Source of the DNA: Gammaproteobacteria bacterium
Lineage (GTDB): Bacteria; Pseudomonadota; Gammaproteobacteria; PS1; Pseudothioglobaceae
Assembly: GCA_008080915.1 (NCBI GenBank)
Contig: VMDI01000041.1
Span: 1-53,877 of the forward strand
Direction of reading: 5' to 3'
Length of the DNA: 53,877 nucleotides
Both the position numbers and the translations under genes were made by a program. Below are positions 1,505 through 42,276 of this stretch, piece by piece. The notes beneath the pieces are model-generated. The model worked only from the letters and a program-made list of their open reading frames with translations, did no database searches and was not told the DNA's origin. Every line of letters starts with the position of its first letter. Position 1 is the first letter of the stretch.

Positions 1505-2268
1505 ATACACCCAAGTTAATTAACTGTGAGGTGATGCATCAGAGGTTGAGCCCCAGAAAGAATGCTTTTAAATATGATGTCTATTACTTAGGAATCCCCC
1601 TGTCTCAAATTGAAAGTAATGCTGTTAGCGAGATACTAAATCTTAATAGGTTTGGTCTGCACAGTTTCTATGAAAAAGATCATGGTTATAGAGATGGCAC
1701 ATCACTTAAAGCTTGGCTTTATGATATGTTTGATGCTTATAAATTTGAAAAACCGAAAGAAGTTTTTTTAATTTCTATGCCAAGAATTCTCGGGTATGTA
1801 TTTAATCCAGTTAGCTTTTGGTTTTGTTGGAATAGTAAGGATGAGCTCTATGCTGTAGTGAGTGAAGTTAATAATACTTTTGGTGAAACACATAGTTATC
1901 TGACCCATTTAGATGATAAAGATACAAACGGGGACTATGTGGCTAAAAAGGTGTTCCATGTATCGCCTTTCCTAGAAAGAGAGGGATACTATGATTTTCA
2001 ATTTTCACTCAGTGATGATTCAATCAAAATACATATCAATCTTTTTGATAGCAATAAGGAGAAAATTCTTTTAACTTCATTATCTGGAAAGTTTGATGAC
2101 TTAAACTCAATGTCATTAAAAAGGGCTTTTTTTAGGGTTCCTTTTGCGACAATGAAGTCAATTTTTTTGATTCATTTTCAAGCAGTTAAATTGCTATTGA
2201 AAAAGATTAAATTTATCTCAAAGCCCAAACAGCTAGATGATCGTTTTACAAAGAATGAAAAAGCTTAG
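1495..2268 (+). CDS. DUF1365 family protein
   Basis: Overlaps the upstream oxidoreductase; motifs MHQRLSPRKNAFKYDVYYLGIPL and PRILGYVFNPVSFWFC; GTG start. Confidence 0.85.
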   Translation: MGINTPKLINCEVMHQRLSPRKNAFKYDVYYLGIPLSQIESNAVSEILNLNRFGLHSFYEKDHGYRDGTSLKAWLYDMFDAYKFEKPKEVFLISMPRILGYVFNPVSFWFCWNSKDELYAVVSEVNNTFGETHSYLTHLDDKDTNGDYVAKKVFHVSPFLEREGYYDFQFSLSDDSIKIHINLFDSNKEKILLTSLSGKFDDLNSMSLKRAFFRVPFATMKSIFLIHFQAVKLLLKKIKFISKPKQLDDRFTKNEKA

Positions 2269-2340
2269 TTGTTCTAATACCTTTCAATTCTTAATGGGTA
2301 ATCTCTAACATCTAAATCTCATAAGGAATATACTTAAGCT

Positions 2341-2715
2341 GTGCTTCAAGAAATCAAACAATTTAGAAAAGACTTTTATAACGCACTTTACCACTGTCAG
2401 CAGACAGAAGGTGACGCGCCTGAATTTTTTACCTTGGAAAATGATGAGTTCTCAATTCAGAAGGCGAAAAGTGATGATGAGGAGAGAGTCTACAGAGGTC
2501 ATTTTAAAACCAGAGAACAGTATTTCTTAATCAAGTCAACATTTGACCCAAACCGAGAAATCGAGACATTAAGTTATTTTAAGACTGATGAAACTTATTC
2601 TAATCCAATTTTTTTGGGACAAGAGAGGTTGCAAGCAGGTCCTTGGCTTAAAGATGACGATATGGAAAATATTGGAGTCAATATCGTTGATGGAAAGTTA
2701 AATATCGATTACTAA
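2341..2715 (+). CDS. Hypothetical protein (124 aa)
   Basis: GTG-initiated ORF filling the gap between DUF1365 and the FGE-like gene, same strand. Confidence 0.55.
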   Translation: MLQEIKQFRKDFYNALYHCQQTEGDAPEFFTLENDEFSIQKAKSDDEERVYRGHFKTREQYFLIKSTFDPNREIETLSYFKTDETYSNPIFLGQERLQAGPWLKDDDMENIGVNIVDGKLNIDY

Positions 2716-2728
2716 ATAAACGTAGCAG

Positions 2729-3460
2729 ATGAAAAGTCATTTTGTATTTTTCACCATATTTATAACCATCTCATTCAGTCGTTTTTCTAATGCACAAATG
2801 ATTCAATTAGAATCATTTCAGATTGATGAAAAAGAAGTCAGCATAGGTGATTTCAGTCAATATATCAAATCTACCGGTTTTAAAACTAAAGCAGAAAGAG
2901 AGGGTGGGGGTTTGGTGTATGAATTTGGCTGGGAAAGAAAACCTGGATGGAATTGGCTAACCCCTTATGGACTCCCCGCCCAAGATGATGAGCCCGCGGT
3001 TCACATTACTTTTGATGAAGCTCAGGCATACTGCATCTGGAAAGGTAAAAGACTTCCAACTGAGAAAGAATGGATATCTGCGGCCTACACTGAGCAAAGG
3101 TTAAACCCTTCAGATGGATTTGAGAAGGGCAAGACTTATTCCTTTCCAACTGGTAACTCTCCAAGAGGTGCGAATTGCTTAGGGCAATGTGGTGATACCC
3201 CTGCCATTGATTATTCTCATCTACTTGATCGTGGAGTAGGGCATTCAAGAGTTGGCTCAACTAAAAGAGGGGTTAATGGTCTTTATGATATGGGGGCAAA
3301 TGTCTGGGAGTGGGTAGATATCAAAGATGCTTCTGAAAAAGGAACTAGAGGCGGTTCATGGTGGTATGGCTCATCACAAATGATGTCAGATTATGATGCA
3401 ACAAAACCCAGAGACATGGCAGTTGTATATATTGGTTTTCGCTGTTTAAAGCCTAATTAA
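2729..3460 (+). CDS. SUMF1/formylglycine-generating-enzyme-like domain protein with signal peptide
   Basis: Motifs PAVHITFDEAQAYCIWKGKRLPTEKEW, GLYDMGANVWEWV, RGGSWWYG, GFRC; hydrophobic N-terminus. Confidence 0.85.
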   Translation: MKSHFVFFTIFITISFSRFSNAQMIQLESFQIDEKEVSIGDFSQYIKSTGFKTKAEREGGGLVYEFGWERKPGWNWLTPYGLPAQDDEPAVHITFDEAQAYCIWKGKRLPTEKEWISAAYTEQRLNPSDGFEKGKTYSFPTGNSPRGANCLGQCGDTPAIDYSHLLDRGVGHSRVGSTKRGVNGLYDMGANVWEWVDIKDASEKGTRGGSWWYGSSQMMSDYDATKPRDMAVVYIGFRCLKPN

Positions 3461-4445
3461 AGATCATTGCAAAGAATTTATCAAACTCTCTCTTATTGGT
3501 TTCTCTGTTAGAAATAAATCGAACGTGGTTATCTGAGTTTGGGGTCAGTTCAATTCCCCATAATCCTCCGATCTCATTAGGGAGATTGGAATACCTTATG
3601 TCTAGAATTTGATTACGATTATTAGGATTGATTGCAATAAATCCTTGGCTAAACCATTTAAATCGCTCAATATCATTTTTTTGCAAGGCAGTTAATTTAT
3701 CCCGTAATTCGTAATTATCTAGATTGAATATATCAATACTATCGCCATTAAAATGTTGTTTTTTAGGACCTAAATTGACTGCATCCACAAAAAAACGATC
3801 TTTGGTTTTATAGATGATTTTCCATAGAATTAAATTACCAAAACTGGGTTTAACGCTAACCTCGATCGCATTGTGACCTCTTTGTTGGATAAGTTCATTT
3901 GCAAATTCAATCGCTCTTTGATGCTGAAACCATCCTAATGACAAATAGAAAATAGCCCAGATTAAAGATACTCTTGCGAGAAAGGGGCTTTTCTTTATTG
4001 CAGCAAGAGTAATTAAAACAACAATTGGGAGGGTAAACAATGGGTCAATGATTGAAATATTATTCCAAGAGAAACGATCATTGGTGAATGGCCAAAGTAG
4101 TTGAGTGCCATAACTTGTGCAGGTATCTAAAATTCCATGAGTTCCGTATCCAACTGATGCATAAAACCAGACCTGTTTGAAACTCAGAGTGACTCTTCTC
4201 TTAAATAGAGAGTAGAAAACTGATGCAAAGATTAAGCCACCAATTGGAATGAATACAAGGGAGTGAGTAAATTGCCTATGAAATTCCAAGAACAGAAGCG
4301 GATCTTGATCTGACTTTATCAATACATCTAAATCAGGTGACATTCCAGCAAAAAATCCGATAATTCCAATCGTTAATAGATTTTTTTTGCTCGATAGACT
4401 TTGAGATAGGCAGGCACCAATTGCGCCTTGACTTAAAGGGTCCAA
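3453..4445 (-). CDS. YdjM-like/DUF457 membrane-bound metal-dependent hydrolase
   Basis: MDPLSQGAIGACL...SPDLDVLI...HRQFTHSLVF...GTHGILDTCTSYGTQLLWPF with multiple TM segments; paralogous to 48982..49947. Confidence 0.8.
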   Translation of the reverse strand: MDPLSQGAIGACLSQSLSSKKNLLTIGIIGFFAGMSPDLDVLIKSDQDPLLFLEFHRQFTHSLVFIPIGGLIFASVFYSLFKRRVTLSFKQVWFYASVGYGTHGILDTCTSYGTQLLWPFTNDRFSWNNISIIDPLFTLPIVVLITLAAIKKSPFLARVSLIWAIFYLSLGWFQHQRAIEFANELIQQRGHNAIEVSVKPSFGNLILWKIIYKTKDRFFVDAVNLGPKKQHFNGDSIDIFNLDNYELRDKLTALQKNDIERFKWFSQGFIAINPNNRNQILDIRYSNLPNEIGGLWGIELTPNSDNHVRFISNRETNKREFDKFFAMIFN

Positions 4446-4563
4446 ATATCCTCCTAGTTTTTTTCAAATTATAGATAGATAATGACTCAAAATTTGGCAG
4501 TGTTTATGAGGTTTAAAAATATTTTAATTAGCATATATTCTTAGGATATAACTGGATAAATCA

Positions 4564-4809
4564 ATGGAATATAACATCGAACAAATTGAAGGAATTATCA
4601 CCTTCAAGAACCAAAATACCACACTTGGATTTGTGAGATTCAATGAAGAGGCTGAAATTGAGTATATATACGTTCAAAATGCCTATCGAAGACAAGGGCT
4701 TGGAAAGAAGCTTCTTAATTTGGTGAAAGAAACAACTGGAAAAGAAGTAACACCACAAGACCCAATAAGTCCTTTGGGCCATCAGTTATTTAAATCAATA
4801 AGGAATTAA
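4564..4809 (+). CDS. Short GNAT-fold N-acetyltransferase
   Basis: IEYIYVQNAYRRQGLGKKLLNLV matches acetyl-CoA binding motif A (RRQGLGKKL). Confidence 0.65.
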   Translation: MEYNIEQIEGIITFKNQNTTLGFVRFNEEAEIEYIYVQNAYRRQGLGKKLLNLVKETTGKEVTPQDPISPLGHQLFKSIRN

Positions 4810-4882
4810 TAGGTGCCGGAAGCAGGGACTTACGAGGAAACTTTGAGGAATAAATAGATTTCCCCACCTCCGACATGATCAT

Positions 4883-5173
4883 TTAGACACAGCCTGTTGG
4901 TTTAGGTAGGCCTCCATATTTTGTAATCGGTTTCATAGGACCAGTTAACCACATCTTAAACATGTCCTTCTTATCCATACCGATGAACTTAGCAAATACT
5001 CTTATAGCAGGCACAGTAGAATTTTCATCGTAGTACTCTCTTGCTTTCATGATTTGTTCAATTTTTTCTGGTGTTAATTCATAGTCATCAGCTTTTGCCA
5101 TTTCATGCATCACGTCTTCTGACCAATCAGCCATGCTCATTAAATAACCATCACCATCTCTTTCTAGTGCCAT
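4883..5173 (-). CDS. DsrC/TusE family sulfur-carrier-like protein with a single C-terminal Cys
   Basis: N-terminal GYL..M.DWSEDV, central YYDENSTVPAIRVFAKFIG, C-terminal arm GPMKPITKYGGLPKPTGCV; penultimate Cys present, upstream Cys replaced by Thr. Confidence 0.85.
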   Translation of the reverse strand: MALERDGDGYLMSMADWSEDVMHEMAKADDYELTPEKIEQIMKAREYYDENSTVPAIRVFAKFIGMDKKDMFKMWLTGPMKPITKYGGLPKPTGCV

Positions 5174-5361
5174 ACAACCTCCTTAACATTTGAGATCAGT
5201 TGGCCTTGAGTCTCAAAATAGCGTTTCGCGCTGATGTAATCAAAGGCGGGCGCCACCATATGAACGATATTAGCGTGGGATCCACTTTTAGTTGTGCCTT
5301 TTGGTGAACAATCGTAACAATCCTTGTCATCAACTCTGACCATTGCTTCCCAGTTCTTCAT
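5164..5361 (-). CDS. Hypothetical 65-aa protein with CxxC (CYDC)
   Basis: SD AGGAG upstream of ATG at 5361; 10-bp overlap with the start of the DsrC-like gene suggests translational coupling. Confidence 0.7.
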   Translation of the reverse strand: MKNWEAMVRVDDKDCYDCSPKGTTKSGSHANIVHMVAPAFDYISAKRYFETQGQLISNVKEVVWH

Positions 5362-5372
5362 TACATCTCCTA

Positions 5373-5477
5373 TTAAAAAATTAAAAAAGCTAAAACACTC
5401 ACTACAAAAAATAAACCTAGTTGAATATAGTGTTCTAGATCTCTATCAATTGCAATATGCCCATAACTTTCTTTCAT
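5373..5477 (-). CDS. Small 34-aa single-TM peptide
   Basis: Below the ORF-track cutoff. Minus-strand translation MKESYGHIAIDRDLEHYIQLGLFFVVSVLAFLIF*, GGAG SD upstream of ATG, just upstream of the 65-aa gene. Confidence 0.55.
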   Translation of the reverse strand: MKESYGHIAIDRDLEHYIQLGLFFVVSVLAFLIF

Positions 5478-5505
5478 ATGTAAATCTCCAATATAGTTAA
5501 CTTAC

Positions 5506-5519
5506 ACTAAATATTTAGT
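5506..5519. promoter_or_regulatory. Perfect 14-bp palindrome ACTAAATATTTAGT (candidate operator)
   Basis: Seen directly; intergenic between divergent genes; flanks AACTTA/TAAGTT extend the symmetry imperfectly. Confidence 0.4.
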
Positions 5520-5594
5520 TACTAAGTTATTGTTTTTCAATAGCAAAAGAAATACTTACAATGTGGGTATAAATCTATGACAAATATCATTTTC

Positions 5595-5617
5595 GTTTAA
5601 CTATAATTTAGTTAAAC
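5595..5617. promoter_or_regulatory. Perfect 9-bp inverted repeat GTTTAACTA-taatt-TAGTTAAAC (candidate operator)
   Basis: Seen directly; 24 bp upstream of the zinc-ribbon gene start. Confidence 0.5.
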
Positions 5618-5641
5618 ATATCAAATATTTCAGGAGAAAAA

Positions 5642-5833
5642 ATGGCAGCAACTTATCAATGTGACAAATGTGGAATGGCAGTTAATGCAACATGTGCAAA
5701 ATGTGATGAGCCTCTTGTCAATGATACAATTACAGTTGATGGAGAGGTAATCCAAGTTTCCAAGTGTCCAAATTGCGAGGGTATGATCAAATCCCCGCTA
5801 TGTTGTGGTCAGGACATGACCTGTCAGGCATAA
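5642..5833 (+). CDS. Cys-rich zinc-ribbon-like small protein (63 aa, nine Cys)
   Basis: CDKC, CAKC, CPNC, CC and TC motifs; SD AGGAG upstream of ATG. Confidence 0.8.
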   Translation: MAATYQCDKCGMAVNATCAKCDEPLVNDTITVDGEVIQVSKCPNCEGMIKSPLCCGQDMTCQA

Positions 5834-5884
5834 GTTATTTAAATTATTTTTTAAGCCCTTTAATGGGAGTAACTGTTTGTATCT

Positions 5885-41949: not shown

Positions 41950-42276
41950 TTAGTATCCACCTTTTCTTTTGGTTTCAGGAAGACCTGCAATTTTCCCAGC
42001 TTGTTTAGCGGGACCTTTAGGGAAAAGAGTATATAAATCTTTAGTCGAAAGACTAGAAGGCCAATCATTTTTTAGAGCTTTAACCATATTTCTTTCGTTA
42101 GGTTGATTGCCATTATTGTTGATATATTCATCTCTCAAGAAGTTTAATACTTTGAAACTTAAATCACTTAAGTCAAGACCTTCTTCAGCAGCAATTTCAT
42201 GCGCAATATCTTCATTCCAATCATCGTGGTTTACAAGATAACCACGTTCAGCTCTTTCTAGATCAGCTAACGCCAT
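41950..42276 (-). CDS. DsrC/TusE-family paralog lacking both C-terminal cysteines (RspA-type)
   Basis: RGYLVNHDDWNEDIAHEIAAEEGLDLSD...FLRDEYINNNGNQPNERNMVKALK...LYTLFPKGPAKQAGKIAGLPETKRKGGY; no Cys in the protein. Confidence 0.88.
   Translation of the reverse strand: MALADLERAERGYLVNHDDWNEDIAHEIAAEEGLDLSDLSFKVLNFLRDEYINNNGNQPNERNMVKALKNDWPSSLSTKDLYTLFPKGPAKQAGKIAGLPETKRKGGY

Follow-up and report, generated by a model that had tools for sequence, protein, structure and literature searches.

A single-cysteine DsrC paralog of the dsrC_1 group, probably acquired through phages, in a gammaproteobacterium of the Pseudothioglobaceae

Members of the DsrC family differ in the cysteines of the C-terminal arm: canonical DsrC carries two, 11 residues apart, TusE has a single one, and RspA has no C-terminal cysteine at all. 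Sulfur reaches the canonical protein as a persulfide by way of TusA and DsrEFH, and the trisulfide that the protein then forms serves DsrAB as substrate (see the summary in PMC13293266). A further subgroup, dsrC_1, was described from SUP05 phages as missing the second C-terminal cysteine together with an insertion of 7–8 residues (Roux et al. 2014, PMC4164917, after Anantharaman et al. 2014). Most of the single-cysteine phage copies of DsrC have since been suggested to serve as TusE (Kieft et al., PMC8190135). Among bacteria, extra DsrC paralogs were noted in A. vinosum, with no function assigned (PMC3368242). The Riftia symbiont, found in our searches to encode a dsrC_1 (L221), expresses four proteins of the DsrC family (PMC7787665). 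No biochemical test of any dsrC_1 protein was found.

The dsrC_1 gene described here comes from a bacterial chromosome contig. The stretch of DNA analysed, called the window below, comprises 53,877 nucleotides of contig VMDI01000041.1 (GenBank assembly GCA_008080915.1); the genome is a 984-kb draft, 86% complete, and the sole member of its genus. The gene is the last of three tightly packed minus-strand genes (Table 1). A preliminary description of the locus had outlined this unit, and the ORF calls bear it out in gene number, strand and position, including the 10-nt overlap (5164–5173) between the 65-aa ORF and the start of the DsrC-like gene. Shine-Dalgarno-like motifs, previously pointed out for the two small genes, are present at all three starts (ttGGAGatttacatATG, AGGAGatgtaATG and AAGGAGGttgtATG). 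Since such motifs are found at only 3.0% of the window's 1978 ATGs, their occurrence at three starts out of three is above chance and supports translation of all three genes. Codon statistics are uninformative on the coding status of the 34- and 65-aa ORFs at such short length: the 65-aa ORF scores 0.13 bits per codon against a null 95th percentile of 0.21, and a conserved neighbour of similar size has the same score. The 65-aa ORF is unusual in composition, its G+C content lying in the top 1.2% of same-size windows. Promoter and terminator scans at the unit gave no more matches than shuffled sequences did.

Table 1. Features of the three-gene unit and of a second DsrC-family gene in the window
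Feature	Position	Strand	Remarks
dsrC_1-type DsrC paralog, 96 aa	4883..5173	-	single Cys95, Thr84 at CysB position
65-aa orphan ORF	5164..5361	-	one CxxC (CYDC); 44% G+C
34-aa orphan ORF	5373..5477	-	C-terminal hydrophobic stretch (putative membrane peptide); sequence MKESYGHIAIDRDLEHYIQLGLFFVVSVLAFLIF
A+T-rich region 5' of 34-aa ORF	5478..5640	-	22% G+C; presumed promoter
RspA-like DsrC-family gene	41950..42276	-	no C-terminal Cys, ends GLPETKRKGGY

The family assignment of the DsrC-like protein is clear from its Pfam match (DsrC, PF04358; E 4.5e-22, 78.9 bits against a cut-off of 24.9) and from its AlphaFold model (pLDDT 90), whose best fold matches are all DsrC, including A. vinosum DsrC (1yx3; TM 0.81). 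The C-terminus, GPMKPITKYGGLPKPTGCV, keeps Cys95 and has Thr84 in place of the canonical cysteine 11 residues upstream, just as the preliminary description had read it. The protein therefore shares with canonical DsrC (A. vinosum 1yx3, D. vulgaris 2v4j_C) the fold and the C-terminal arm with its last cysteine, but is without CysB and, as seen in an alignment with 1yx3 and with the genome's own DsrC, without the 7–8-residue insertion before the arm. Paired arm cysteines at the canonical spacing were found in no dsrC_1 relative either. Cys95 also sets it apart from the RspA-like paralogs, which belong to the same family but have no C-terminal cysteine and fall in another clade. In a tree of 97 rows the window protein sits in a 74-row clade (support 100/99) that holds the phage copies and is separate from the canonical DsrC, TusE and RspA-like rows, the comparison the preliminary description had called for; TusE was represented there by one row (E. 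coli), on a long branch. The dsrC_1 relatives end in [M/L]KPITKYGG[L/M]P[K/Q]P[T/R]GCV in 120 of 120 cases, with one cysteine and a threonine at the position of the second, although the invariance of KPITKYGG is partly built in because it was one search pattern behind this set; the family's orthologs, found without patterns, have the same ending. The single C-terminal cysteine and the absence of both the second cysteine and the insertion are shared with the SUP05-phage proteins, among them that of phage Lau218 (KJ183193), to which the window protein is 64.6% identical, and it matches phrog_17249, the PHROGs entry for dsrC_1, at E 1e-37. What differs from the phage genes is the setting of the window copy, on a bacterial chromosome contig and behind two orphan ORFs. 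Judged by its sequence and predicted fold, the protein is a dsrC_1 member rather than a TusE, a canonical DsrC or an RspA.

It had been stated earlier that the window contains no dsr genes. This needs correction, as an RspA-like DsrC-family gene lies further along the window (Table 1); the dsr genes are on other contigs, with dsrA on contig 40 and dsrB-E-F-H-C-M-K on contig 66, where the genes were recognised by reading the ORFs. The dsr operon of contig 66 includes a canonical, two-cysteine DsrC. The genome thus carries three genes of the DsrC family, namely the canonical dsrC, the single-cysteine dsrC_1 and the cysteine-less RspA-like gene. Orthologs of the last with the same GLPETKRKGGY ending are common in the window's family.

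A tblastn scan of GTDB contigs, in which every match at E <= 1e-3 counted as a relative of the window protein, returned 403 of them. The 80 best of these are largely from sulfur-oxidising gamma- and betaproteobacteria, among them Thioglobus, Sedimenticola, the Solemya and Riftia symbionts, Thiodiazotropha, Thiobacillus, Sideroxydans, Thiothrix and others. The gene was also found on 59 viral contigs and, at more than 100 bits, in 43 of the 83 genomes of the window's own family. The link with the reverse Dsr pathway is best seen in 370 genomes sampled evenly at class level, with presence of dsrC_1 set at E <= 1e-30: dsrA was found in 45 of the 47 genomes with dsrC_1, compared with 80 of the 323 without it. 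This association spans 25 families, and its Fisher p of 7e-22 ignores shared ancestry. Of the two dsrC_1 genomes without dsrA, one carries a fragment of dsrB where a contig ends. Many dsrA-positive genomes have no dsrC_1, so the pathway does not require it. The neighbours of dsrC_1 in 80 named genomes include none that is common across taxa, prmA and alaS recurring only in the window's own family; in one genome (L242) the gene ends a minus-strand run that lies immediately upstream of the dsr operon and diverges from it. Taken together, dsrC_1 is a bacterial family of long standing among sulfur oxidisers with reverse Dsr; it also occurs in marine viruses and, because of the dsrA counts, is on sequence grounds tied to sulfur oxidation, not to tRNA thiolation.

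What would such a protein do? Its role is likely that of a one-thiol persulfide carrier or a competitor in the Dsr sulfur relay. Cys95 would accept a persulfide from the TusA/DsrEFH relay, whereas the loss of CysB would leave the protein unable to form the intramolecular disulfide or trisulfide that is canonical DsrC's route to DsrAB and DsrMK. A protein with only the last cysteine and no intramolecular trisulfide could thus act as a one-thiol carrier, buffer or competitor beside canonical DsrC, tuning the flow of sulfur to it, or as a sensor, and phages bringing dsrC_1 could shift sulfur flow during infection. The role of an ordinary TusE, in which the protein would pass sulfur on from TusBCD to MnmA to make the 2-thiouridine of tRNA, would agree with the single C-terminal cysteine and with the suggestion of Kieft et al. 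for most of the phage copies, and the genome's DsrEFH could replace TusDCB. We regard it as quite unlikely, since the TusE equivalog model gives 53.9 bits against a cut-off of 191, the protein lies in a clade separate from E. coli TusE and lacks the insertion which that protein has, and dsrC_1 follows dsrA rather than the genomes with enteric-type tRNA thiolation; the dsrA association in particular argues against the TusE role suggested in PMC8190135. A helix-turn-helix-like regulator with the DsrC fold, sensing persulfide on Cys95 and controlling the dsr genes, would fit the putative role of DsrC in transcription regulation cited in PMC7787665, the weak similarity of its fold to those of LexA and further helix-turn-helix proteins, and the location of dsrC_1 beside dsrAB in one genome. 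This too seems unlikely: the fold matches outside DsrC have E values of 0.5 or worse, and DNA binding is purely hypothetical.

The origin of the window copy can be weighed in a similar way. Its identity is 82% to two copies from marine phages (L036 and L037) and 60–70% to the dsrC_1 copies of its own family, while the ThrS of the same genome is 74–83% identical to that of most of the same relatives. The locus differs as well: in the family, dsrC_1 is located between prmA and alaS, whereas the neighbours of the window copy are a GNAT gene and a zinc-ribbon gene, and a search of the draft genome did not yield prmA. The higher identity to the phage copies and the different locus point to acquisition through phages, probably. 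Vertical inheritance would mean that the copy is the family's dsrC_1, merely moved, and that the phage copies were taken from the window's lineage. The presence of dsrC_1 in about half of the family's genomes (the 43 of 83 above) speaks for it, host genes are commonly taken by phages, and a single draft genome represents the genus. We nevertheless consider it rather unlikely. Besides the ThrS comparison and the change of locus, an AU test rejected a tree that made the window copy a member of the clade formed by the host copies and their phages (p 0.007, an optimistic value because the groups were picked after an earlier tree). The tree, built on 96 columns, left the exact sister of the window copy without firm placement. 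Phage-mediated acquisition is, as far as the sequences can tell, the best reading, with transfer presumably from phage to bacterium.

By reading of their ORFs, two of the dsrC_1 viral contigs (L037 and L044) carry genes such as that of a PhoH-like ATPase and have a T4-like look. L036, among the phage contigs the one nearest to the window copy, has two genes resembling flavin-dependent halogenases (1048–2199 and 3624–5120) and an IscU-like gene near dsrC_1, all recognised by eye. Another viral contig with dsrC_1, L038, which may not be purely viral, has a putative TonB-dependent receptor of 568 aa (1766–3472). Next to the three-gene unit of the window, the zinc-ribbon gene (5642–5833, plus strand) encodes a 63-aa protein with several CxxC motifs; it falls under all Pfam and NCBIfam cut-offs and is 50–75% identical to proteins in 6 of the 39 other relatives searched, in varying contexts. 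The unit and this gene are flanked by an imperfect 25-nt direct repeat (4771–4795 and 5820–5844, 80%). It was considered as an integration scar and set aside, since this single imperfect pair is possibly due to chance.

The two small ORFs are a different matter. The 65-aa protein matches nothing in Pfam or NCBIfam, and its relatives were sought without success in viral contigs, GTDB contigs, the 83 family genomes, phage records and plasmids, where the contig scans used exact peptide patterns that distant relatives would escape. Its PHROG match (phrog_38516, E 0.026) is unconvincing, the matches at E of about 0.01–0.07 are chance, as their frames, read by eye, fall in HisG, NAD kinase, a cytochrome-like protein and similar genes, and its predicted structure (pLDDT 46) is too poor for a fold search. 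The 34-aa protein has no relative within the window's family. Neither ORF adjoins any of the more than 130 dsrC_1 relatives fetched, some of whose contigs end just upstream. Conserved synteny with the DsrC-like gene, which the preliminary description had made the test of its proposal, is hence absent outside this genome within the collections searched. The two are probably translated, lineage-specific small genes, or they may have arrived together with a transferred dsrC_1; any joint action with it is hypothetical.

The preliminary description had proposed a specialised persulfide carrier with a CxxC partner and a membrane peptide, in a module it did not recognise. The carrier part stands in so far as the protein is a specialised single-cysteine paralog of DsrC, neither TusE nor canonical DsrC; its subgroup was already described in phages (PMC4164917). 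The dedicated three-gene module, in which the CxxC protein would reduce or load the carrier and the 34-aa peptide dock it at the membrane, finds no support, given the absence of relatives and of synteny of the small ORFs. The tight packing, the overlap and the three Shine-Dalgarno motifs favour such a module, which is all the same very unlikely, the small proteins having turned up in none of the other collections searched and beside no dsrC_1 relative fetched, and dsrC_1 elsewhere having varied contexts and no conserved partner. A variant, in which all three genes are a phage-born sulfur-carrier cassette kept by the host and the 65-aa protein is a phage-type partner loading or discharging the single-thiol carrier, we hold to be very improbable; if true, it would provide the first dedicated partner for viral DsrC-like proteins.

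In summary, the genes are real, the protein is of a known kind and a new module is not supported. We favour, with a probability of about 0.6, the reading of the gene as a laterally acquired, probably phage-borne member of dsrC_1, that is, a reverse-Dsr-associated DsrC paralog in which the C-terminal cysteine is the only one left. What is useful here is the close link between dsrC_1 and reverse Dsr in bacteria, together with a host copy that looks phage-derived. The single-cysteine DsrC proteins of SUP05 phages, so far guessed to be TusE-like, are part of a bacterial subfamily which is strongly conserved and whose occurrence follows that of dsrA. With this, the question of what the phage copies do moves to culturable bacteria, in which a deletion is testable, and the bacterium of the window appears to carry a copy from the viral pool, not from its own family.
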